A stretch of DNA of 46,163 nucleotides from Sulfurospirillum sp. (GTDB lineage: Bacteria; Campylobacterota; Campylobacteria; Campylobacterales; Sulfurospirillaceae). The notes under the pieces were generated by a model. The model ran no database searches. It was not told the DNA's origin and worked only from the letters and a program-made list of their open reading frames with translations. The stretch covers positions 1 to 46,163 of the forward strand of contig JACUTU010000011.1 in the NCBI GenBank assembly GCA_014859685.1. The letters run 5' to 3'. Positions within the stretch are counted from its first letter, which is position 1. Every line of letters begins with the position of its first letter. Below are positions 28,911 to 41,764 of the stretch, piece after piece. Both the position numbers and the translations under genes were made by a program.

Positions 28911-30275
28911 TTGTTAAAGTCAGAAAATGCTATAAAAGAAGAATTTTGGAAGATATTTTCAAGTCAAGATAGACAAAAGATTAAAGATTTTCGTAAGCAT
29001 ATGGACAACTTTGCTGTAAACTTCAATCTCTACAAAGATGGAAATTTTATCGAAAGATCGTTGCCTTTTGATGTTATTCCTAGAATTATCGAGAAACAAG
29101 AGTTTCAAAAGATTCAGCAAGGTTTAGAGCAGCGCATTCTTGCTCTCAATGCTTTTTTGCAAGATCTCTATACTGATGAAAAGATTGTCAAGCAAGGTCT
29201 TATTCCTCGTGAATTTATACTCCAAGCCAAGGGCTATGTAAAAGAGATGCGGGGATTTACACCACCTAAAAAAGTTCGTACGCATATCAATGGTATCGAT
29301 CTTGTTAAAGATACAAAAAATGATGAGTGGGTGATTTTGGAAGATAATTTGCGTGTGCCAAGCGGTGCAAGTTATCCTCTTTCCATTCGTGATAAATACA
29401 GAAAAGTGTATCCAGAATATTTCTCAAAACTTAAAATAAATCCTATTAAGCAGTATTCGAGCTACCTCAAAAATGCTCTTGATTATGTAAACTGTGGTGG
29501 TATAAATGTTGTATTGACGCCGGGAAGATTTAATTCTGCTTATTATGAACACAGCTATCTTGCCCGCATAATGGGTGCGCAACTCGTAAGAGCTGATGAA
29601 CTTGTTGTGATTGATAAAAAGGTGTATTTTAAAAACTATGATGGACAAAAAATTCTCGTAGGCTCAATCTATCGTAGGCTTGATGATGATTTTCTTGATC
29701 CGAAATTTTTTGAACCTGAGAGTTTGATTGGGGTGCCATATCTGGTAGAGGCGTATCTTGCTGGCAATGTTGCTATCCTCAACTCAATCGGCAATGGGGT
29801 TGCTGATGATAAGGGTATTTATTATTTTGTGCCGCAGATGATAGAGTATTATCTAGGTGAAAAACCTTTGATGCGTAATGCACCGACTTACTTGCCATAT
29901 TTTGAAAAGGATATGCGTTATATCGAAGAGCACATAGATAAACTAGTGATCAAAGATGTGGCCGAAGCCGGTGGTTATGGTGTGTTGTTTGGACACACGA
30001 TGTCAAGTATCCAGCTTGAGGATCTCAAAACACTCATCAAAGTAAATCCTCGCCGTTTTATCGCACAGGAGTTGATTGAGTTTTATGATGAAGAGTGTTA
30101 CATCAATGATGAACTGACTCCTAGAAAAGCTGATTTTAGGGCTTATGTTGTTATGGCTGAAGATGTAAAAGTTTGGGAATGTGGATTGACCCGATATGCG
30201 ATTGATGCAGGAAATTATCTTGTAAACTCATCGCAAGGTGGCGGTTTTAAAGATACTTGGGTAGTGGAGTTGTAG
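28911..30275 (+). CDS. Circularly permuted type 2 ATP-grasp protein (stand-alone)
   Basis: Predicted peptide ligase of about 455 residues. Family landmarks are FILQAKGYVKEM, EDNLRVPSGASYPL near 140, LTPGRFNSAYYEHSYLAR near 200, YRRLDDDFLDP, NGVADDKGIYYFVPQMIEYYLGE and SSQGGGFKDTWV at the end. I choose TTG 28911, six bases after GGAGG; a TTG at 28905 touches the ribosome binding site. It is followed with no gap by the alpha-E gene. Homologous with the N-terminal half of the protein at 31921. Confidence 0.88.
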   Translation: MLKSENAIKEEFWKIFSSQDRQKIKDFRKHMDNFAVNFNLYKDGNFIERSLPFDVIPRIIEKQEFQKIQQGLEQRILALNAFLQDLYTDEKIVKQGLIPREFILQAKGYVKEMRGFTPPKKVRTHINGIDLVKDTKNDEWVILEDNLRVPSGASYPLSIRDKYRKVYPEYFSKLKINPIKQYSSYLKNALDYVNCGGINVVLTPGRFNSAYYEHSYLARIMGAQLVRADELVVIDKKVYFKNYDGQKILVGSIYRRLDDDFLDPKFFEPESLIGVPYLVEAYLAGNVAILNSIGNGVADDKGIYYFVPQMIEYYLGEKPLMRNAPTYLPYFEKDMRYIEEHIDKLVIKDVAEAGGYGVLFGHTMSSIQLEDLKTLIKVNPRRFIAQELIEFYDEECYINDELTPRKADFRAYVVMAEDVKVWECGLTRYAIDAGNYLVNSSQGGGFKDTWVVEL

Positions 30276-30932
30276 ATGCAAGATTTATTGACAGGAAATG
30301 TAGCAAGTTGTTTGTACTGGATGGGAAGATATTTGGAGCGTTGTGAAGCTTCTTTGATAGAGGTTTCACGGGCATTTGATATCATCATTGATGTGAATGT
30401 CAATGAAGGGGTGATACTCTATGAGAAACTTGATGAGCATATAACCTATAATGGAGCATCGGATTTTTTAGATGTTGCTATTTTTGGAGATCATGGAGGC
30501 AATTTGCTCAAGGTTATCATGGCAGCGAGAGAAAATGCCATCATCTCGCGAACACAGCTTGAGACAGAAGCTTTTGGTTCGATTATAAAACTTGCAAGAT
30601 TTATGCAAGATACTTCTAAAAATCAAACAAAGATTGATTGTACATTTATCAATGAGGCTTTATCACTTACTAGTGAGACTTGGGGCAAGCTAGATCAAAG
30701 ACAAAATCGCCATAGGGCGGATTATTTTATCAGGCTTGGAAGACTTGTTGAAAAAGTTGATTTTAAGTTGCGACTTGAAGATGATAAAAATTTTGCATTG
30801 ATTGTTATGGACGAGATAGATACTATAGTACAGATTTTAGCACCACATGTAACCTCTAAAGATCATACAAATAGCAGCAAGGCTGAACTCATCGTCTCAA
30901 TCAACAATAAAATTGACAAAATTATAAACTGA
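30276..30932 (+). CDS. Alpha-E domain protein (stand-alone)
   Basis: All-helical partner of the permuted ATP-grasp ligase, 218 residues. The signature ASCLYWMGRYLERCEASL starts at residue 9, and SNNxxNxx-like helical sequence follows. Its ATG directly follows the ATP-grasp stop. The last codon and the TGA stop (AAC TGA, 30927-30932) come at the first bases of a miniature element inserted at 30928, so the original C-terminus was probably different. Biochemical role unknown. Confidence 0.87.
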   Translation: MQDLLTGNVASCLYWMGRYLERCEASLIEVSRAFDIIIDVNVNEGVILYEKLDEHITYNGASDFLDVAIFGDHGGNLLKVIMAARENAIISRTQLETEAFGSIIKLARFMQDTSKNQTKIDCTFINEALSLTSETWGKLDQRQNRHRADYFIRLGRLVEKVDFKLRLEDDKNFALIVMDEIDTIVQILAPHVTSKDHTNSSKAELIVSINNKIDKIIN

Positions 30933-31005
30933 TGTTACGCACGAAAACAAACGCATCTTTTTTTCTAAAAAAACTTGCATTTTGCAAAAAGTGCGTAAGG
31001 TCAGT
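30928..31005 (+). mobile_element. 78-bp miniature inverted-repeat element
   Basis: ACTGATGTTACGCAC at the left and GTGCGTAAGGTCAGT at the right (13 of 15 complementary), with exact flanking 5-bp duplications TATAA (30923-30927 and 31006-31010). The interior is short and A/T-rich and differs from the other copies except near the right end (TTTTGCAAAAAGTGCG). It lies between convergent genes and supplies the stop codon of the alpha-E gene. Confidence 0.9.
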
Positions 31006-31026
31006 TATAAAAACACAAGAAGCGGA

Positions 31027-31917
31027 TTAGTCTTCCCTTGAAACATCTACTTTCACTTCTAACTCACTTTCTCCGCTACTAAACACAACGCCTTTGAGTG
31101 GAGAAATATCATAATAATCTCTACCATATCCTAGCAATATGTGCTGGTCTCTTGGAATGAGATTGTTTGTTGGATCAAAATCAACCCAACCTATACTTGG
31201 AATATACAAAGAAAACCACGCATGTGAGGCATCTGTTCCAAAAAGTTTTTGCTTTCCCTTTGGCGGAATTGTTTCTATATAGCCACTCATATATCGAGCG
31301 GGCAGTCCGATGGTACGCAACGCTGAGATGGCAAACTGTGCAAAATCCTGACACACTCCTTGTTTGGCTTCAAATATTTTTTCTATAGGTGTGGTTACAT
31401 CGCTAAAACCAGCAACAAATTCAAAATCTTCATAAATCCTTGTCATAAATTCTTTTGTAGCTTCAAAGAGATCTCTTTTTGGATGGAAAGATTGCATGGC
31501 ATATTCTCGTATCTTCTGTGAGCTTTTAGGTATAAGTTCTGAATCAAATAAAAAAAGTTTGGCAAAAAGATCTGAAGGCGAAAAGAGTGTGATTCTTTTG
31601 ATAGCAGCTTCGTAAGTAATGCTATTTGTCTTACATGTAGCGATTTTCTCTTCGATCGTGCTTGTCAAAATCTCAACTTTTGATTTGCCTATCACTGTGA
31701 ATTTTTCATGCGGCTCTCGGATAAGCATATGTGAAGTATTGTTATGAAAAATATCATAAAAATCATAAATTTCATAAGGATGTGGCGTAACTTTCATACT
31801 AAAATCAAGTAGCTTTTGGTACTTGTTACTTTTTGGTTTAAGCCTCGCTAAATTGTGGCTAAAAGAGACTATTCCCTCGTAATTAAAACTTGTTTCGTGA
31901 TAAATGTTATAGATCAT
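31027..31917 (-). CDS. Transglutaminase-like cysteine protease
   Basis: 296 residues: N-terminal beta-rich transglutaminase-associated region (about 1-140) and core domain with the Cys-His-Asp triad in KQGVCQDFAQFA, DASHAWFSLYIP and GWVDFDPTNN. In this gene family the domain is taken to be a peptidase acting on products of the partner ligases. It follows the fused ATP-grasp/alpha-E gene by three bases, as third gene of the minus-strand operon. The predicted product has no signal peptide and should be cytoplasmic. Confidence 0.9.
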   Translation of the reverse strand: MIYNIYHETSFNYEGIVSFSHNLARLKPKSNKYQKLLDFSMKVTPHPYEIYDFYDIFHNNTSHMLIREPHEKFTVIGKSKVEILTSTIEEKIATCKTNSITYEAAIKRITLFSPSDLFAKLFLFDSELIPKSSQKIREYAMQSFHPKRDLFEATKEFMTRIYEDFEFVAGFSDVTTPIEKIFEAKQGVCQDFAQFAISALRTIGLPARYMSGYIETIPPKGKQKLFGTDASHAWFSLYIPSIGWVDFDPTNNLIPRDQHILLGYGRDYYDISPLKGVVFSSGESELEVKVDVSRED

Positions 31918-31920
31918 GGT

Positions 31921-34413
31921 TTACTCATCATAGTGTGAAAAATAGGTTTTTGAAAGCTCATTTGTAGCCTCTATAAAATACTCAGTAAGTTCTGAAAGTA
32001 TTCCCTCAAGATTTTTATATATTGTGCCATCTTCTCCAAGTTGCAAAATCTGTGATACTTTAGCTAGTTTGAGCGTTGTATAAGCCTTAAATATCGGCTC
32101 TTCATAGGTCGTAAGGTATGTTTTAGACTTTGGCAGTGCTTTAAATTCTTTTAAAAGAGCATTGGTGAGAAATGTCAAAGATTTTGGAAACTGCGGATTG
32201 AGAAGTAAAAATTCGATAACATTTTCTTGTAAAAGGGAACTTTTATAAGAAGCTCTATACGCATTAAAACTCTCCGATGCGTTTAAGATAGCCTCTAGCG
32301 TATCATAAGTAGCTGATTTATCAAGCTTAAGACAAAGCATTGAGCGAATTTGTGAGATAAGCAGCAGCGAACTTTCAATTTTAAAACCGATATCAAATAG
32401 AAGCAACCCTTGCTCCTTAAACATACTCTCATCAACAAGTTCTTTATAAGACATAAGATAGATGAGCAGATTGTCTAATTCACTAAGCGTTGTTCTACTT
32501 GTGTGCGATGGTTTTTGGATAAAGGCATTCCATTCTTTATCGAGTTTATCATAGACTTTCCAAGATTCCATAGCAAGCAGATTCTTTACATTGATTGAAG
32601 TGTTTGAAAGCATTGAAATCGTAAAGGTAAGTGAGCCTTGTTTGTGTTTGTCTTTGATGAGTTGATTGATCTCAAGCATTGGATTTTGGTCAAGTTGCAA
32701 TGCTTTTTCTTTATCTTTTTCCAAAAATCCTGGGTATGTCATCGTCAAGTGTGTCAGTGTATTTTCTAAAACTTTTTGTGCTTCTTTGGAGGATGGATTT
32801 TCAAAACGATAAAAATTGGTCAATTTTTTGACTGTATAGCGGATGAAACGAGCCGTAATAATGCTACGAGCTAGGTATCTTCCAAGCCAATAGAGATTTT
32901 CTGCTTGCAAAGTTGGGATATTTTGAATGCAAATATCTACATGTGGAATGTGATTATAATTAACTACTCGATCAAGTTCCTCTTTTTTGCCAAGTATCCA
33001 AAGATCTTTGCTGGTGCCGCCTCGCTGTGAAGAAACCATAAAAGTATCTTTGGAAGTAGAAACCCGCACAAGTCCACCATTCATCACCGAATATTCTTTC
33101 TCTTGCTTGAGCACAAATGCCCGAATGACTGCATTGCGAGGCTCTATATGGTCGTTGTGATAGTAAGGTGTTGTTGAAAAACTAATCTCCTCTTGGGCTA
33201 TGTATTGGGTTGGATTTTGTAGCACTTTTTCTTTGAGTTCTACTATGCCTTGCGTGTCAAGTTTTTTACAAAAGTATGTTTCTATCTGCTCTGTTCTATC
33301 TATCTTTTTAATGATAAGCGAGGACATATTTTCAAAAACATATTCAAGCTCTTTTTTCTGTCCGCACCACCATGTTGCGATTTGTGGCAAGATAAGTTCT
33401 TCATCAAGAAAATAATCAGCAATTGCGTTCATGAAAGGATTGAGCCCGATATTTTCCAAAATAGCACTGCCTATTGGGTTTATCATCTTGAGATTGTCTT
33501 GACGCACCGCTTCTATAAGCCCTGAAGTACCTAATTGTGAATCATTTTTGAGTTCAAGCGGATCGGCGTAGCGATCATCAAGTCGCCTAAGGATGGTGTT
33601 TATTTTTTTAAGTCCACTCAGACTTTTAAGCCACAAAGAGCCATTTTTGCTTAAAAGATCATTGCCCTGTACAAGGTTTATCTCGAGAAAGGAACTCAAA
33701 AAGGCATGCTCAAAATAGGTCTCATTGTGTGGTCCTGGCGTGAGCAATACAGCCTTGTCCATCTGTGAACCGCAGAGTTCATTGATGAGGTTTTTGAACT
33801 CTTGAATGAAGACAAACAATTTTCTTGTGTCAATATTTGGATAGAGTTCGTTGGAAACTACATTCATAGTAAGCCTGTTTTCGATAGCATAACCCAAGCC
33901 AGAGGGTGCTTGTGTACGGTCGTTGATGACCCAAAAATTTCCATTTGGTCCTCTAGCCAAATCTGCTGCATAAAAATTAAGGTCATAGTTTTCTTTAAAA
34001 CCAAAATCAAAAACCTCCAAACAATAGCCTTTGTGTCCGAAAATAACTTCAGCTGGGATTATATTTTCTTTGAGCAACTTTTGTTCACCATAGATATCTT
34101 TGAAGATTAGGTTAAAAAGTTTTGCCCTTTGTTTCAGCCCGCATCGAACTTTGGACCAATCCTCTTCTGTGACGATAAAAGGAATCGGATCAAGACTCCA
34201 TGGACGGTTATTGCTATCTTTTGGGGTATTGTAGATGTTGTAAGTAACGCCATTGTCCTCAAGATGCCAATCAATCTCAGCTTGTTTTTGCTTGAGTGTT
34301 TCATTGCCTGCTTCTAAAAGCTTGTCATAAAGATATTGCCAATGCGGACGAATTTTTTTATCTTTGTCAAACATTTCATCAAAAGATGCTTCACTGCGGT
34401 ATGTATTGAACAT
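31921..34413 (-). CDS. Fused circularly permuted ATP-grasp / alpha-E protein
   Basis: About 830 residues. The first ~480 are the permuted ATP-grasp ligase (VIFGHKGYCLEVFDFG, NDRTQAPSGLGYAIENR, LTPGPHNETYFEHAFLSS, LRRLDDRYADPLEL, SSQRGGTSKDLWILG). The rest is an alpha-E domain starting at AENLYWLGRYLARSI. It is thus a fused relative of the two separate proteins at 28911 and 30276. I prefer ATG 34413 (MFNTYRS) preceded by AAGG; the in-frame ATG at 34434 overlaps the upstream gene by 16 bases and has a weaker site. Confidence 0.88.
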   Translation of the reverse strand: MFNTYRSEASFDEMFDKDKKIRPHWQYLYDKLLEAGNETLKQKQAEIDWHLEDNGVTYNIYNTPKDSNNRPWSLDPIPFIVTEEDWSKVRCGLKQRAKLFNLIFKDIYGEQKLLKENIIPAEVIFGHKGYCLEVFDFGFKENYDLNFYAADLARGPNGNFWVINDRTQAPSGLGYAIENRLTMNVVSNELYPNIDTRKLFVFIQEFKNLINELCGSQMDKAVLLTPGPHNETYFEHAFLSSFLEINLVQGNDLLSKNGSLWLKSLSGLKKINTILRRLDDRYADPLELKNDSQLGTSGLIEAVRQDNLKMINPIGSAILENIGLNPFMNAIADYFLDEELILPQIATWWCGQKKELEYVFENMSSLIIKKIDRTEQIETYFCKKLDTQGIVELKEKVLQNPTQYIAQEEISFSTTPYYHNDHIEPRNAVIRAFVLKQEKEYSVMNGGLVRVSTSKDTFMVSSQRGGTSKDLWILGKKEELDRVVNYNHIPHVDICIQNIPTLQAENLYWLGRYLARSIITARFIRYTVKKLTNFYRFENPSSKEAQKVLENTLTHLTMTYPGFLEKDKEKALQLDQNPMLEINQLIKDKHKQGSLTFTISMLSNTSINVKNLLAMESWKVYDKLDKEWNAFIQKPSHTSRTTLSELDNLLIYLMSYKELVDESMFKEQGLLLFDIGFKIESSLLLISQIRSMLCLKLDKSATYDTLEAILNASESFNAYRASYKSSLLQENVIEFLLLNPQFPKSLTFLTNALLKEFKALPKSKTYLTTYEEPIFKAYTTLKLAKVSQILQLGEDGTIYKNLEGILSELTEYFIEATNELSKTYFSHYDE

Positions 34414-34418
34414 ATTGT

Positions 34419-37400
34419 TTACTGCCTTGCCCATTTTCTACGAAGATCAAGCGTCATCGGGTACTCGATATTTTCATCAAGTTTTTCATATAAAAAGTGA
34501 TCCTTGCAACCAGCTTTTGCAACTACGGCTCTTTTTGCACCATTGATATCGTTTAAATTTTGTTCTATATATGCTGGAGTTACTGGAGTGATATCGCCTT
34601 GTGTGTGGTTAAAATCCCAAAATCTGTTGATTCTTCTTGATTCCGCTTCATAAGAGTTTATTGGAAATGTATCGTAACTTCTGCCACCTGGATGGGCAAC
34701 AAAATAGTTCATACCGCCGATGGAACGGTTATTCCAAGTATCTACCAGATCAAAAACAAGTGGTGTATCTACACCGATAGTTGGATGCAACGCAGACCAA
34801 GGTTGCCATGCTTTGTACTTCACGCCAGCTACAAATTCACCCTCTACACCAGTTGCAGCAAGTGGGATTTCAACACAGTTACATGTAAGCTTATAGCGTT
34901 CTGGAGTAAAATTATTGACTTTAACTTGCACACGCTCTAGTGATGAATCTACATATCTAGCAGTTCCTTGCGAGGCACTCTCTTCTCCCAAGACATGCCA
35001 CGGTTCAATTGCTGCTCGAAGTTCTATGTGGATATTGTTGATGGTATTCATTCCGTATAGAGGAAAGCGGAATTCAAAAAATGGATCAAACCAATCAAGA
35101 CTAAAAGGATATCCTTCGTCATTTAAAAATCCAACGATATCTTTTATATCTTCTTTAACATAATGTTCAAGCAAGAATTTGTCATGCAATTGAGTTCCCC
35201 ATCGTACTAGTTTATGCTTATATGGTTTTCTCCAAAACAAAGAAACAAGTGTTCGTACAAGGAGCATTTGCATAAGTGACATTTGCGCGTGTGGTGGCAT
35301 ATCAAAAGCCCGCAATTCAAGGATACCTAGGCGTCCTGAGCTTGAATCTGGTGAATAAAGTTTGTCGATACAAAATTCACTTCTATGTGTGTTGCCTGTT
35401 ATGTCTGTGAGCATATGGCGAAACAGTCTATCGATCAACCAAAATGGTACTTCACCCTCGGTTGGAATTTGTGAAAAAGCAATCTCAAGTTCATAAAGAT
35501 TTTCCAATCTTCCCTCATCAACTCTCGGCGCTTGCGAAGTTGGGCCGATAAAAGCTCCTGAAAAAAGATAAGAAAGTCCTGGATGGTGTTGCCAAAAAGT
35601 GATTAAACTACGCAACAGTTCTGGATTTCGCAGTAGTGGACTATCGCTAGGTTTCATGGCGCCTATAGTGACATGATTGCCCCCGCCTGTGCCTGTGTGT
35701 TTGCCATCTGTCATAAATTTTTCAGTACCAAGGCGTGAAAATCTAGCATCTTCATAGAGTTTGAGTATATTGTGACTCAATTCACTCCAAGTTTTCGATG
35801 GATGGATATTTACCTCGATGACGCCAGGGTCTGGGGTGACTTTGATGCGTTCTATCCGCAAATCATGCGCTGGCTCATACCCCTCAAGCACTACTTTCAT
35901 ATCAAGATCTTGTGCAACGACTTCGATCGATGCGATGAGATCCAAAAATGCTTCCGTATCATTGAGTGGCGGCAAAAATATAGTGAGTTTGCCATCGCGG
36001 ATTTGGGTACAAAGTGCTGTTTTAATAAATTTTTCGTATCTATTTTTATCAGTAGTTTTACCATCGCTAGATTTTTGTCTTTTTAAAGCGTCACTCAAAT
36101 ATTCTCCAAGTTCAGGATGGGAGGCGAAAAGATCAGGTTCGAAATTCAAAGCAAGCTCTACATGTGGCTTTTGGATGAGTGATTCTAGTGGTAAACGAAG
36201 TCCAAGCGGTGAGTTGCCAGCACCTAAAAAAAGATGTCCTCTGCGAAATTCCCACTTACATGTAAGCCATTTTGTTTTATGAAAATTGAGTGGCAACACA
36301 AATCCAGCTGGTTTATTGAGTCCTTTTTGCAACACTTGCGCGATACTTTGTCGCTCAAGCGGATCATCAAGATTACATGTAAGTGGATCAATATCAAGCG
36401 GTAATTCAGCTTCTTTCATAATGTAATACACCGGATCTTCATACGCATCAATGATGTTTTGATCACTCACGCCTAAAGTCAGTGCAAGTTTACTGAGGAA
36501 TTTTTTCGCATCAGCGTCACTGTAATCAAAAGAGGCGTTCATATCTGCCAAAAGATCTGGATTTTGCCAAATAGCTTTTCCGTCTTTTCGCCAAATGATG
36601 GAAGTCTGCCATCTTGGAAGTGGCTCTCCTGGGTACCATTTGCCCTGCGCATAGTGCAAAAGTCCACCACTTGCAAAAGAACTTAAAAGTCTTCGAGCTA
36701 ATGTGTCTGCAAGTTCTCGTTTGTGTTCACCATCGGCTGTAGTGTTCCACTCTTTAGCTTCCATATCATCAATGGAGACAAAAGTAGGCTCACCGCCCAT
36801 GCTCAAGCGAACATCATTTGCTAAGAGTTCTGCATCAACTTTAAAGCCAAGAGCGTAAATCTCATCCCACTGTTTTTCTTTGTATGGTTTTGTTACCCTT
36901 GGTGATTCGAAAATTCTTGTAACCTTGTTTTCATAAAAGAGTTCACTCTCACACTTTTCACTCAAGCCATCTATCGCATGAGCGCTCTCATATGATGGAG
37001 TGCATGCGAGCGGTATATGTCCCTCACCCGCAAAAAGCCCACTGGTGGCATCAAGCCCAACCCAGCCAGCCCCTGGGATAAATACTTCACACCATGCATG
37101 TAAATCAGTAAAATCTTCAGGTGGCCCGCTTGGCCCATCGAGGGATTTAATGTCCGCTTTGAGTTGCACAAGATAACCCGAAACAAATCTACTTGCAAGT
37201 CCTAAGTGGCGTAAAACTTGTACAAAAAGCCATGCAAAATCACGGCAACTTCCAAGACGCGAAGTGAGTGTTGTTTCACAAGTCTGCACTCCTGTTTCGA
37301 GGCGAATGGTGTAGTTGAGATGCTGGTTTATTTGCGTGTTAAGATAGACTAAAAAATCGATAATAGGCTTTTTTGTAAGATCAAGTTTTGCCATAAATTC

Positions 37401-37784
37401 TTTTAAAAGTTTTCCATCTTCTTCTATCTCAAAGTAGGGCAATAACTCTTTTTGGAGTGTTTTTTTATAGCTAAAAGGATACTCTTTTGCATACTCATCT
37501 ACAAAAAAATCAAAAGGATTCATCGTAATAAGATCAGCTTGAATTTCAACATCAATTTTTAGCTCTTTTGTTTTGTTTGGAAATACAACGCGTGCGAGGT
37601 AATTTCCAAAAGGATCTTGCTGCCAATTGATAAAATGATCTTTCGGTTCTATATTTAGCGAATATGCTTCTATGGGAGTTCTTGAATGTGGCGCTGGACG
37701 CAATCTAATCGTATGTGGAGCTAATGAAACAAAGCGGTCATAGCTATAATGTGTTTTATGGGATAATACAACTTTAAGTGACAT
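34419..37784 (-). CDS. Transglutaminase-like / DUF2126 fusion protein
   Basis: 1121 residues. About 1-290 is a transglutaminase-like region with triad GSCRDFAWLF, DLHAWCEVFIP and GWVGLDATSG. About 310-1121 is DUF2126, including LSMGGEPTFVSIDD, HTGTGGGNHVTIGAMKPSDS and GILELRAFDMPPH; Iyer, Aravind and colleagues interpreted such proteins as permuted glutamine-synthetase-like ligases (from memory). First gene of the minus-strand operon, followed by the fused ATP-grasp protein. A miniature element lies 32 bases upstream of its ATG. Confidence 0.9.
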   Translation of the reverse strand: MSLKVVLSHKTHYSYDRFVSLAPHTIRLRPAPHSRTPIEAYSLNIEPKDHFINWQQDPFGNYLARVVFPNKTKELKIDVEIQADLITMNPFDFFVDEYAKEYPFSYKKTLQKELLPYFEIEEDGKLLKEFMAKLDLTKKPIIDFLVYLNTQINQHLNYTIRLETGVQTCETTLTSRLGSCRDFAWLFVQVLRHLGLASRFVSGYLVQLKADIKSLDGPSGPPEDFTDLHAWCEVFIPGAGWVGLDATSGLFAGEGHIPLACTPSYESAHAIDGLSEKCESELFYENKVTRIFESPRVTKPYKEKQWDEIYALGFKVDAELLANDVRLSMGGEPTFVSIDDMEAKEWNTTADGEHKRELADTLARRLLSSFASGGLLHYAQGKWYPGEPLPRWQTSIIWRKDGKAIWQNPDLLADMNASFDYSDADAKKFLSKLALTLGVSDQNIIDAYEDPVYYIMKEAELPLDIDPLTCNLDDPLERQSIAQVLQKGLNKPAGFVLPLNFHKTKWLTCKWEFRRGHLFLGAGNSPLGLRLPLESLIQKPHVELALNFEPDLFASHPELGEYLSDALKRQKSSDGKTTDKNRYEKFIKTALCTQIRDGKLTIFLPPLNDTEAFLDLIASIEVVAQDLDMKVVLEGYEPAHDLRIERIKVTPDPGVIEVNIHPSKTWSELSHNILKLYEDARFSRLGTEKFMTDGKHTGTGGGNHVTIGAMKPSDSPLLRNPELLRSLITFWQHHPGLSYLFSGAFIGPTSQAPRVDEGRLENLYELEIAFSQIPTEGEVPFWLIDRLFRHMLTDITGNTHRSEFCIDKLYSPDSSSGRLGILELRAFDMPPHAQMSLMQMLLVRTLVSLFWRKPYKHKLVRWGTQLHDKFLLEHYVKEDIKDIVGFLNDEGYPFSLDWFDPFFEFRFPLYGMNTINNIHIELRAAIEPWHVLGEESASQGTARYVDSSLERVQVKVNNFTPERYKLTCNCVEIPLAATGVEGEFVAGVKYKAWQPWSALHPTIGVDTPLVFDLVDTWNNRSIGGMNYFVAHPGGRSYDTFPINSYEAESRRINRFWDFNHTQGDITPVTPAYIEQNLNDINGAKRAVVAKAGCKDHFLYEKLDENIEYPMTLDLRRKWARQ

Positions 37785-37988: not shown

Positions 37989-38882
37989 TCAGCGTAAATT
38001 TGCTTGATTTTTTACAATTACGCTCAGCCAGATACCAATGGCGATAAAAGCAGCTCCGATGAGATGATAAAAGTAGAGTTTTTCTTTTAAAAAAATATAT
38101 GCAAGTACAAATCCAAAAAGTGGCATAAGGTGCGTGAATTGCCCTGTTTTGTTTGCACCTATGGCATGGATACCTTGGTGCCAAAAATAAAAAGACAAAA
38201 CAGAAGTAAAAAGCGAAATGTAGATAAATACCCAATAATAACGCTTTACAATAATTATATCAGTCGCAAAATTGCTGCCTATTGCAAAGTAAATCACACC
38301 TAATACCAGTGTGCCGATAGCAACAACGGTGGAGAAAAATTCCATATCACTCAACTCTTTTGGTCTGAATTTAAGCAAAACAGAATAACTAGCCCACATC
38401 AGTGAAGAGGCGATAACCCACAGATCCCCGCTATTGAACTGTAACTCTAAAAGAACGCTAAAATCGCCTTTTGTTATAAGATATATAACGCCGATTGTTG
38501 AAAGTATTATGCCTAAAAGTTGTTTTGTACAGATATCTATCTTGATGATCAAAAAAGAAAGAATAAGGATAAGAATCGGAATGGAAGAGTTAATTAAAAG
38601 TGCGTTCATCGCGGTTGTGTCTTGTAAGCCAATGTAAAGAAATGTGTTAAAACTAGTGATACCAAGCACGGATGCAAGCGTGATGATAAAAAAATTCTTT
38701 TGTAGGCTTTTAAGGATTTTTTTATAACGCATTATCAAGATTGGTGCTATGATAAAAACAACACCAACCCAGCGGAAAAACGCTAGTGAAACGGGATCAA
38801 TTGCACTTGAAACATATCTGCCGATGATAAAATTGCCAGACCAAAACAAAACACACAAAATGAGCAAGATATAAACACGCAT
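37989..38882 (-). CDS. DMT-superfamily (EamA) transporter
   Basis: Inner-membrane permease of 297 residues with about ten hydrophobic helices in two EamA repeats (for example VLFWSGNFIIGRYVS and ALAFFRW near the start, WVIASSLMWASYSVLLKFRP and GAAFIAIGIWLSV later). Substrate unknown. Its start overlaps the stop of the zinc permease gene by one base, so it is probably co-transcribed with the zinc operon; a role in metal or metallophore export is only a guess. Confidence 0.85.
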   Translation of the reverse strand: MRVYILLILCVLFWSGNFIIGRYVSSAIDPVSLAFFRWVGVVFIIAPILIMRYKKILKSLQKNFFIITLASVLGITSFNTFLYIGLQDTTAMNALLINSSIPILILILSFLIIKIDICTKQLLGIILSTIGVIYLITKGDFSVLLELQFNSGDLWVIASSLMWASYSVLLKFRPKELSDMEFFSTVVAIGTLVLGVIYFAIGSNFATDIIIVKRYYWVFIYISLFTSVLSFYFWHQGIHAIGANKTGQFTHLMPLFGFVLAYIFLKEKLYFYHLIGAAFIAIGIWLSVIVKNQANLR

Positions 38883-39685
38883 TAGGCGAAAAATTTTTTA
38901 TAGCTTAAAAAAAGAATAAACGAAATGCTAGCAACCAAGATGATGCTAGCCCCAGAAGTGAGATCAAAACTGTAAGAAAATATGAGTCCTGTGATGCTAA
39001 AAAATGATGCGAAACAAACCGCATAAAGCATCATGCCTTGCAAGGATACTGAAACCTGTTCGGCGATATAAGTAGGAATGCTCAGCAAGGCGATAACAAG
39101 AATAAGTCCAACTGCTTTGATGGCGATGACTATACAAAGTGCTGCAAGAACGAGAATGAGCGTGTAAAAAAAGTTTACATGTATGCCTCGAAGTTTTGCA
39201 TATTGCGTATCGTATGAAACCGCCAAAATATCGCGATACCAAAATGTAACAATAAAAATTATCAGAGCAACAAGTGCGTACATGTAGTACAAATCAGCTT
39301 GACTTACAGCTAGCAATGAACCAAACAAATAACTCATAAGATCAACATTGTATCCTGGTGTAAGATCTACTAAAATGATTCCAATTGCCATGCCAACAGC
39401 CCAAATTAGTCCTATAAATGTATCTGTTCGTTCCCGTTCGTTGATGGTCATATAGGCTATGAGCAACGCAGCAAGCACTGAAAAAAGCGTAGCTCCTGCA
39501 AAGAGTGGCAGACCAAAATACACAGCAAGCCCAATGCCGCCATAAGAAGCATGTGCGATGCCTCCAGTTAAAAATACCATTCTATTAACCACGATAAGTG
39601 AGCCGATGATTCCAGCTGCGATACTCACTAATAATGCTGCTAAGAGAGCATTTTGCATAAATTCATAAGCAAATATATCCATCAT
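38882..39685 (-). CDS. znuB: Zinc ABC transporter permease
   Basis: Membrane subunit of an ABC-3 family metal importer, about 267 residues and seven to eight helices. GGIAHASYGGIGLAVYFGLP is the family signature loop. Start is ATG 39685 or the adjacent ATG 39682; both overlap the znuC stop (ATGATGG). Part of znuA-znuC-znuB order. Zinc rather than manganese specificity is inferred from the neighbouring regulator and the His-rich binding protein. Confidence 0.9.
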   Translation of the reverse strand: MMDIFAYEFMQNALLAALLVSIAAGIIGSLIVVNRMVFLTGGIAHASYGGIGLAVYFGLPLFAGATLFSVLAALLIAYMTINERERTDTFIGLIWAVGMAIGIILVDLTPGYNVDLMSYLFGSLLAVSQADLYYMYALVALIIFIVTFWYRDILAVSYDTQYAKLRGIHVNFFYTLILVLAALCIVIAIKAVGLILVIALLSIPTYIAEQVSVSLQGMMLYAVCFASFFSITGLIFSYSFDLTSGASIILVASISFILFLSYKKFFA

Positions 39686-40416
39686 AATTTTGCTACCAAG
39701 CTTAGTAGTTCTACTTCGCAAAAATGTTCATTTTGGGTGAAAAATTTGTTGCGTTTGAGGTGACTCATATCGTGAAATGAAAGAGTTTTGTTGATATATG
39801 CTACTTTTTTTGCATACTCCAAGCTGATCGCTATATCATGACTGATAACAACGATTGTGATATCTTCATTGAGTTTTTTCAAAAGTTCATAAATCTTTTT
39901 TTGCCCTTTAGCATCTATATTTGCCGTCGGTTCATCGAGTAAAAGTAGTGTTGGATGTGCGCACAAAGCCCTTGCGATCATTACTCTTTGCCGCTCGCCT
40001 CCAGAAAGATCGCCTATCTTTTTCTGAGCAAACGCTTCCATGCCAACTTGTGTCAAGGAACTCATCGCACACGCTATTTCATCTTTGCCATAACCTATAA
40101 ATGGGCGTTTTGAACCTGTATGTCCCATCATCACTACTTCTAAAACTTTTATGGGAAAATGGGTGTTTACATTTGTGTTTTGCGGAACATAACCTACGCG
40201 CATGGACTTTTTGTCCGTTTTTTCTCCAAAGAGTGTGATTGTGCCACTTTTAGGTTGTAATACGCCTAAAATAAGTTGCAAAAGTGTACTCTTGCCACCA
40301 CCGTTTGGCCCGATGATGGCAAGAAAATCTTTTGTGCTTACATGTAGATTGATATTTTCTAAAACGAGTTCATCTTCATAAGAAAAAGAAACATTTTCAA
40401 TCTTTATGATTCCCAT
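39682..40416 (-). CDS. znuC: Zinc ABC transporter ATP-binding protein
   Basis: ATPase of 244 residues. Walker A GPNGGGKST near 36, Q-loop VGYVPQN, signature LSGGERQRV, Walker B TLLLLDEP and switch His in VVISHD are all intact. It follows znuA by six bases and overlaps znuB. Confidence 0.93.
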   Translation of the reverse strand: MGIIKIENVSFSYEDELVLENINLHVSTKDFLAIIGPNGGGKSTLLQLILGVLQPKSGTITLFGEKTDKKSMRVGYVPQNTNVNTHFPIKVLEVVMMGHTGSKRPFIGYGKDEIACAMSSLTQVGMEAFAQKKIGDLSGGERQRVMIARALCAHPTLLLLDEPTANIDAKGQKKIYELLKKLNEDITIVVISHDIAISLEYAKKVAYINKTLSFHDMSHLKRNKFFTQNEHFCEVELLSLVAKL

Positions 40417-40422
40417 AAAATC

Positions 40423-41283
40423 CTATCTATTTGCTATAGCATTTGCCATATTGATGAGTGTTTGTTCCCAGTCTGGGCTTAATGGGCTTATCTTGATAAC
40501 GCGTATGCCCAAATCTTCAGCGATAATTTTAGCACTTTTATCTGAAAATTCGGGTTGTGCAAAGATAGCTTTGATATTTTCCTCTTTCGCTTCTTCTAAA
40601 ATCATAGCCAACTCTTTTGGTTTTGGCTCTTTGCCCGCAACTTCTATCGCTAATTGTTCAAGATTGTATTGGTGAGCAAAATACCCCCATGATGGGTGAA
40701 AAACCATAAATTTTGCATGTGGTGCTACGCTTTTGAATATCGTTTGGATTTGTGTATCAAGCGCATCTACTTTTTGCACAAATGCAGCATGATTTTTTTC
40801 ATAGACGGCACTATTTTTACTATCTAATTGCAAAAGAGTTTCAAGCATATTTTTAGCGATAATTTTAATATTTTTTGGACTTGTCCATACATGTGGGTCT
40901 TTGCTAATAGCTCCTTTACTCTCTTTGTGGGCATGTCCATGTCCGTGTTCATGCTCTAGCATGTCTATCTTTTCTATGCCTTTTGTCACATCAACCACTA
41001 CTAATTTCTTGTTTTGATTGGTAAATTTTTCAAGCCACGCATTTTCAAATTCAACGCCAATAGAAAAATAGATATCTGCTTTGGAAATTTCTATCATCTG
41101 TGATGGTTTTGGTTCATAAGAGTGGATGTTCTCACCCGCTTTTATCATCAAAGTATTCCCCACTAAATCCCCAGTGATCGCCTGCAAAATCGCTTTTTGC
41201 GGCAAGATGCTCACTACAGCATTGATTTGTGCAGAAGCACTCCCTAAAAATGCACACAAAAAAAGTGCAAAGTATTTTTTCAT
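40423..41283 (-). CDS. znuA: Zinc ABC transporter substrate-binding protein
   Basis: Periplasmic zinc-binding protein of 286 residues with a Sec signal peptide (MKKYFALFLCAFLGSASA). Cluster 9 metal ligands are visible: His in ENIHSYEPKPSQ, DPHVWTSP, FHPSWGYFAHQY and an acidic site near FAQPEFSDKSAK. A His-rich loop HEHGHGHAH near 115 is typical for ZnuA and argues for zinc. First gene of the operon; a palindromic operator lies 15 bases ahead of its ATG. Confidence 0.93.
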   Translation of the reverse strand: MKKYFALFLCAFLGSASAQINAVVSILPQKAILQAITGDLVGNTLMIKAGENIHSYEPKPSQMIEISKADIYFSIGVEFENAWLEKFTNQNKKLVVVDVTKGIEKIDMLEHEHGHGHAHKESKGAISKDPHVWTSPKNIKIIAKNMLETLLQLDSKNSAVYEKNHAAFVQKVDALDTQIQTIFKSVAPHAKFMVFHPSWGYFAHQYNLEQLAIEVAGKEPKPKELAMILEEAKEENIKAIFAQPEFSDKSAKIIAEDLGIRVIKISPLSPDWEQTLINMANAIANR

Positions 41284-41297
41284 CAGATTCTCCTATT

Positions 41298-41312
41298 TGC
41301 AACTCAGTTGCA
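41298..41312. promoter_or_regulatory. Zur operator 1 (znuA side)
   Basis: TGCAACTCAGTTGCA, a perfect 7-1-7 palindrome located between promoter and start of znuA, in the position expected for a repressor. A second near-identical site lies 51 bases away (centre to centre). Confidence 0.75.
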
Positions 41313-41329
41313 TTTAATTTTTGAAATGA

Positions 41330-41335
41330 TATACT
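41330..41335 (+). promoter_or_regulatory. Probable -10 of zur
   Basis: TATACT lies between the two palindromes, so that operator 2 covers the transcription start of zur. The -35 region is A/T-rich without a consensus. Confidence 0.4.
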
Positions 41336-41348
41336 TTACTATCTTAAA

Positions 41349-41363
41349 TGCAACTGAGTCGCA
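41349..41363. promoter_or_regulatory. Zur operator 2 (zur side)
   Basis: TGCAACTGAGTCGCA, the same palindrome with one mismatch, flanked by further symmetric A/T bases. It lies 17 bases before the zur ATG, predicting autoregulation. Confidence 0.7.
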
Positions 41364-41380
41364 TCAAATAGGAGAGATAA

Positions 41381-41764
41381 ATGGCAAGCGTAAAAGTACT
41401 TTTGGAGGGAAAAGATTTTAAACTGACACAAGCAAGAAAAGCATTGTTGGATATATTTGTAAACTCTACTAAGCCGTTGAGTTACGAAGATATTAAAAGC
41501 ACTCTCTCCATGGATAAAGCGACTTTTTATCGCAATATCACAAAATTTGAAGAGCAAAAGATTATAAATGCCATAGAATCCCATGATAAAAAACGCTACT
41601 TTGAAATCAAGGCAAAATCACACGCACATTTTATCTGTACCACATGTAACAGCGTAGAGTGCATTAAAAACGGTATCTATGTAACGCTTAAAAATTACAC
41701 CATCTCAAATGTGATCTTACAAGGAATTTGTCCTACATGTAATCTGGCAAACGATAAAAATTAG
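41381..41764 (+). CDS. zur: Fur-family regulator, probably Zur
   Basis: Metal-responsive repressor of 127 residues. The winged-helix region contains LSYEDIKSTLSMDKATFYRNITKFEEQKII. Two CxxC zinc motifs, ICTTCNSVEC and GICPTCN, are in the C-terminal domain. Divergent from znuACB with two shared operators, which is the argument for Zur rather than Fur or PerR. ATG follows AGGAGAGATAA. Confidence 0.88.
   Translation: MASVKVLLEGKDFKLTQARKALLDIFVNSTKPLSYEDIKSTLSMDKATFYRNITKFEEQKIINAIESHDKKRYFEIKAKSHAHFICTTCNSVECIKNGIYVTLKNYTISNVILQGICPTCNLANDKN

Follow-up and report, generated by a model that had tools for sequence, protein, structure and literature searches.

At positions 28911-37784 of a contig of 46,163 nucleotides (the window) from a Sulfurospirillum sp. 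genome (2.1 Mb, class Campylobacteria), five genes of the ATP-grasp/alpha-E/transglutaminase/DUF2126 type probably form one ATP-dependent amide-ligase system that includes a pseudoenzyme, and not two systems. Judged from its conserved residues, the system is best read as a pair of active ligases that differ in fold, together with two transglutaminase (TG)-fold domains and one two-domain pseudoenzyme, in which an ATP-grasp is fused to an alpha-E domain. These families are said to have been predicted as one system by Iyer et al. in 2009, with DUF2126 as a glutamine synthetase (GS)-like member. All five genes are intact at the coordinates of Table 1 and their proteins gave Pfam matches far above chance level, which confirms the domain types named in an earlier reading of this DNA (the sequence-only reading), its observation that the same domains occur here both split and fused, and its general theme of a predicted peptide or amide ligase. 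Its proposal that two sets make two products, or that two ATP-grasp ligases act in sequence, is not supported, because the motifs of the fused ATP-grasp and alpha-E are lost.

Table 1. Genes of the ligase locus in the window, with an associated gene pair of relatives.
Feature	Position	Strand	Matches and remarks
Stand-alone circularly permuted ATP-grasp	28911-30275	+	PF14403, 438 bits; homologue of 3N6X, E 9e-108
Short alpha-E, 218 aa	30276-30932	+	PF04168, 60 bits, profile positions 3-172 of 294
Transglutaminase-fold (TG) protein	31027-31917	-	PF08379 and PF01841
Predicted pseudo-ATP-grasp fused to degenerate alpha-E	31921-34434	-	PF14403 and PF04168
TG domain fused to DUF2126	34419-37784	-	PF09899, 1268 bits
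Tandem X1/X2	compared locus L048, 11230-13133		equivalents in 13 loci; linked to stand-alone ATP-grasp; seen only in Campylobacterota

We compared 110 ATP-grasps (54 stand-alone and 56 fused) from seven phyla (Campylobacterota, Bacteroidota, Pseudomonadota, Verrucomicrobiota, Thermodesulfobacteriota, Nitrospirota and Poribacteria). The stand-alone protein of the window keeps E146, N148, K350, GGYG at 356-359, D410 and N441 (numbered on the 456-aa open reading frame from 28905); E146, N148 and GGYG were kept in 54/54 stand-alone sequences, and D410 and N441 in all 53 that reach those columns. We take E146 and N148 of the LEDN motif to be Mg ligands and GGYG to be the phosphate-clamping loop, from motif position and by analogy with glutathionylspermidine synthetase; the solved structure 3N6X carries the same LEDN, GGYG and NSSQGGG motifs as the stand-alone family. 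Among the 56 fused ATP-grasps GGYG, N148 and D410 were never found, and E146 and N441 were found once each. The fusion of the window shows the changes E146N, N148R, GGYG to EQIE, D410V and N441S, and lacks the predicted Mg ligands and Gly-rich phosphate loop expected of an active ATP-grasp ligase. These residues are gone from the fused form in every phylum examined, which is the loss of catalytic ATP-grasp residues in one set that the sequence-only reading had named as counting against it.

The alpha-E domains followed the same division. In the window the stand-alone alpha-E possesses E21-R22, R85-E86-N87 and E159, and Arg-Glu-Asn (REN) at 85-87 was present in 54/54 partners of an active ATP-grasp (one Lys-for-Arg case being scored as kept); REN was present in none of 55 fused alpha-E domains, which have likewise lost D162 and R166; those of the Campylobacterota are also without the ER-motif Glu (0/15). 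That both sets of residues are lost in the same paralogue suggests, without proving it, that the alpha-E residues take part in the reaction of the ATP-grasp. The alpha-E of the window is without the C-terminal ~100 aa found in other phyla, but this is typical of Campylobacterota (mostly 217-239 aa, versus 309 and more elsewhere) and not a truncation peculiar to the window. An extra stand-alone short alpha-E with an N-terminal extension of ~57 aa adjoins the stand-alone operon in one compared genome (G191; L053 14814-15635). No significant match in the Protein Data Bank was obtained for the alpha-E fold when it was searched within the model of the fused protein.

In a phylogeny of split and fused ATP-grasps, which the sequence-only reading had suggested as a check, each form made up a single clade (support 100 for both, by SH-aLRT and no bootstrap). 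The fused gene is not decaying, because its dN/dS in a close pair of relatives (0.036; 0.034 for the ATP-grasp part and 0.039 for the alpha-E part) is as low as in the active neighbour genes. We infer that the fused protein is a predicted pseudoenzyme, a non-catalytic partner that might serve as scaffold, regulator or substrate holder, a task deduced solely from its conservation and its obligate partnership. It could also be an active enzyme with altered chemistry and no scaffold (e.g., an acyl-transferase that needs no metal, or a sensor of nucleotides), as the strong purifying selection (0.034-0.039), the conserved motifs of its own (33 invariant columns in 45 sequences), the residues K350, R407, K449 and D450 that the fused forms mostly keep, and a predicted fold (pLDDT 87.9) close to 3N6X (TM 0.86) and to glutathione synthetases would all allow; we consider this unlikely, since the predicted Mg ligands E146 and N148 and the entire phosphate-clamping loop are missing from all or almost all of the 56 sequences, and the alpha-E partner residues have been lost as well. 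No mention of an inactive ATP-grasp was found in the literature searched, a search that did not extend to the text of Iyer et al. 2009.

The distribution of the genes supports the reading of one system with a pseudoenzyme. Of 44 genomes from the bacterium's family, 22 carry a copy of either ATP-grasp form: 17 have both, five only the stand-alone form and none only the fused form. Among 25 genomes with DUF2126 from outside the class (in which ATP-grasp forms were sorted by open-frame length, one frame being ambiguous) the stand-alone ATP-grasp was present in all and the fused form in 22, so the co-occurrence in relatives that the sequence-only reading had looked to (17/22 in the family, 22/25 in other phyla) was found. 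In the genomes surveyed, the fused ATP-grasp never occurred without a stand-alone one; with catalysis predicted to be lost and co-occurrence obligate, the locus is best regarded as one system including a pseudoenzyme. Loci were picked by their similarity to the DUF2126 gene of the window and are thus a non-random sample; in 50 of them with at least 9 kb on each side, the stand-alone ATP-grasp was nearby in 28, the fused form in 35 and both in 21. The order ATP-grasp, alpha-E, TG-DUF2126, pseudo-ATP-grasp-alpha-E and TG on one strand was seen in ten loci from several phyla, and an eleventh co-directional locus has this order with an extra TG gene in front. A clinical Enterobacter roggenkampii carries the same five genes on an IncFII plasmid (L150 9597-18794; NZ_CP116251.1), where the operon can move as a unit because transposase genes of IS elements stand on either side. 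Distances among stand-alone and among fused ATP-grasps are correlated over 37 loci (Mantel r 0.66, with 0/2000 permutations as high), which is partly due to the shared ancestry of the hosts. The five-gene system is most likely ancient, and its genes are arranged in several ways, of which the convergent order in the window is one.

Several points weigh against this reading. The two halves lie on opposite strands in the window and in other Campylobacterota loci and, in the window, cannot share one transcript for that reason; a stand-alone ATP-grasp without the fused set occurs in some genomes and also in Anbu operons; the residues K350, R407, K449 and D450 mostly persist in the fused form; and lost residues are no proof of inactivity, some pseudoenzymes having residual or new chemistry.

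With its ATP-grasp degenerate, the fused set would have DUF2126 as its working ligase, which is predicted from structural models to be a GS-fold amidoligase and the second ligase of the locus. AlphaFold modelled TG-DUF2126 with middling confidence (pLDDT 73), and by VIA-align residues ~300-910 of the model superimpose on glutamine synthetases (Z reaching 15.1, with an rmsd of 3.9 for 258 residues), with further matches to gamma-glutamylmethylamide synthetase, YbdK and glutamate-cysteine ligase. By Foldseek alone the GS likeness was weak (E about 0.17), and a sequence search of TG-DUF2126 against solved structures gave a match in the transglutaminase part only. Motifs such as GGEPTF, GTGGGNH and E.R.F.MPPH do not vary across 40 sequences, which is an argument for a working active site but no proof of one. 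DUF2126 itself was not mentioned in the literature searched, the text of Iyer et al. 2009 lying outside that search. In the TG domain of the same protein C180, H229 and D245 are kept in 40/40 sequences, and the separate TG protein has an intact Cys-His-Asp triad (C189, H232, D248), present in 68 of 70 homologues. Some relatives (G056, G109) carry a third TG-fold gene (TG2) in the stand-alone operon, with Ser for the catalytic Cys (L048 13130-13900; L050 13721-14491), and in one locus (L054 7853-9079; G044) a gene for a PLP enzyme of Cys/Met metabolism lies between the TG-DUF2126 and pseudo-ATP-grasp genes.

The stand-alone operon of most relatives extends into two further genes, X1 and X2, for proteins of ~315 aa each from the AstE/AspA family (PF24827). 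The zinc ligands His, Glu and His of X1 were kept in 13/13 loci; in X2 the first two are lost in nearly all and the third has become Glu in 13/13. By these residues, X1/X2 appear to be a second active/inactive pair. The nearest solved relatives of X1 are deacylases of the desuccinylase/aspartoacylase type, including N-acetyl-diaminobutyrate deacetylase. Close copies of X1 (55% identity or more) were found in 10/200 genomes of the class, every one beside a stand-alone ATP-grasp, and in 0/188 genomes without that ATP-grasp. Of the 12 genomes among the 200 that bear the ATP-grasp, ten have X1 and X2 next to it, the window genome and G122 being the two that lack them; because both nest in the tree among relatives that keep the pair, two separate losses are the simplest reading. 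No remnants of X1/X2 above chance were detected in the window, and a search for an AstE-like gene elsewhere in the genome gave one weak M14/AstE match, a 450-aa frame on another contig, and no X1 orthologue.

For the single system with a pseudoenzyme we propose the following scheme. The stand-alone ATP-grasp would activate a carboxylate as acyl phosphate and join the acyl group to an amine, with alpha-E helping to form or serve the active site, and DUF2126 would make a second amide of gamma-glutamyl type on the same pathway. The TG-fold domains might act on amides by hydrolysis or transfer, whether for editing, transfer or recycling. The pseudo-ATP-grasp-alpha-E would not catalyse, but could be a scaffold, substrate holder or regulator paired with the active ATP-grasp/alpha-E, with DUF2126 or with both. 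In the Campylobacterota variant X1/X2 would accompany the ATP-grasp, and the window genome would have lost them. We tentatively extend this to a widespread amide-synthesis complex built on active/pseudo pairs (ATP-grasp with alpha-E and, in Campylobacterota, an AstE-like deacylase whose pseudo copy is zinc-less), with REN belonging to the ATP-grasp active site or reaction, although we hold this broader picture to be somewhat less likely than its opposite.

Published work bears on the physiological role. In Burkholderia cenocepacia the four genes of the BCAM1233-1236 cluster (I35_5080-5083) are activated by NtrC/sigma-54 and expressed 6-9.4-fold lower in an ntrC mutant (PMC5491218), a correlation between domains of the system and urea metabolism is reported for marine metagenomes (PMC3597751), and a Yersinia ATP-grasp encoded in the Anbu operon liberates Pi from ATP when no substrate is added (PMC6376114). 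These observations make amide formation and turnover under nitrogen limitation the most likely setting, and we give about an even chance that the system stores, scavenges or recycles the nitrogen of amides or amines. No sigma-54-like promoter motif matching a strict pattern was found in the window, which gives nitrogen control in the present host no support.

The system might instead tag proteins with peptides, in a way similar to ubiquitin or pupylation and together with a tag-removing peptidase, as in the 2009 prediction of Iyer et al.; the domain content agrees with that prediction as cited in later papers, and the TG-fold triads are intact. This also seems improbable to us: no tag-removing peptidase is apparent, because the genome is without Anbu and without the AstE-like pair; no modified protein was reported in the literature consulted for the system; no interaction among the Yersinia operon proteins was observed in published work; and the AstE/DoeB-type relatives of X1 act on small N-acyl amino acids, favouring a small-molecule product. 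Least probable is that two independent ligase systems with two products, a split set and a fused set, are merely adjacent, even though the split set stands alone in 5/22 family genomes with any copy and elsewhere with Anbu (PMC5666114), has in relatives the extra genes TG2, X1 and X2, and lies on a different contig from the fused set in two Campylobacterota genomes, because the fused set was never seen without the split set, co-directional operons of all five genes were seen in several phyla and also on a plasmid, and the degenerate fused ATP-grasp leaves DUF2126 as the only ligase of its set.

Within the window the plus-strand pair and the minus-strand trio converge across a gap of ~90 bp. 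The start of the ATP-grasp gene at 28911 was upheld: it is a TTG with GGAGG 6 nt upstream, and relatives begin at the corresponding residue. The closest named relatives of the DUF2126 gene belong to Sulfurospirillaceae, Sulfurimonadaceae and Arcobacteraceae. Base composition gave no sign of foreign origin (GC 0.36-0.41 at the locus, similar to the flanks), and for an empty-site comparison with congeners the flanking genes were on separate contigs or far apart. Sites resembling sigma-70 promoters are no more frequent in the window than in shuffled sequence. Beside the locus, at 38882-41764, lie ABC genes of the zinc-uptake type (ABC-3 permease, ATPase and ZnuA) and, in divergent orientation, a Fur-family gene; no sign was seen that this cluster belongs to the ligase system. 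The earlier statement that Anbu is missing from the locus can be extended to the genome: in a search for Anbu or another NTN peptidase, the sole proteasome-fold gene (PF00227; 178 aa) was HslV-like and stood directly upstream of a 440-aa HslU-like AAA gene, a layout from which we conclude that Anbu is absent.

For this widely distributed system, predicted in 2009, the present reading changes what is worth testing. If the locus comprises one active pair, a GS-fold ligase and a pseudoenzyme, the fusion is unsuited to a lone ligase assay and the five genes should be treated as one unit. The joint motif loss offers a first clue, and one that can be tested, to what the alpha-E domain does, while the NtrC control known from the literature points to nitrogen limitation as the growth condition for a product search.

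Compared with the system of Iyer et al. 2009, the locus shares a circularly permuted ATP-grasp, alpha-E, a GS-fold ligase and TG-fold domains in one neighbourhood, and the features of that system (intact ATP-grasp residues, the ER and REN motifs of alpha-E, DUF2126 and the TG Cys-His-Asp) are all present; amide or peptide ligation would be its predicted activity. The window differs in having no NTN (Anbu) peptidase and a short alpha-E, and further in that the fusion is a predicted pseudoenzyme always alongside an active copy and that relatives carry AstE-like proteins. The Anbu operon of Yersinia and Pseudomonas (PMC6376114, PMC5666114) has in common the stand-alone ATP-grasp, alpha-E and a transglutaminase, but it is a four-gene operon with Anbu and without DUF2126 or a fused pseudo-ATP-grasp; a proteasome-fold Anbu gene is found neither in the operon nor in the genome of the window. 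The solved structure 3N6X, a putative glutathionylspermidine synthase of Methylobacillus flagellatus, represents the stand-alone ATP-grasp family as a single protein, whereas the fused copy of the window lacks its motif residues. A parallel in gene content, with published nitrogen control, is B. cenocepacia, where locus L149 (from another strain than that of PMC5491218) includes both ATP-grasp forms, with ATP-grasp, alpha-E, TG and TG-DUF2126 beside pseudo-ATP-grasp-alpha-E and TG; it differs from the window in its full-length alpha-E, an extra TG gene after alpha-E and its co-directional arrangement.

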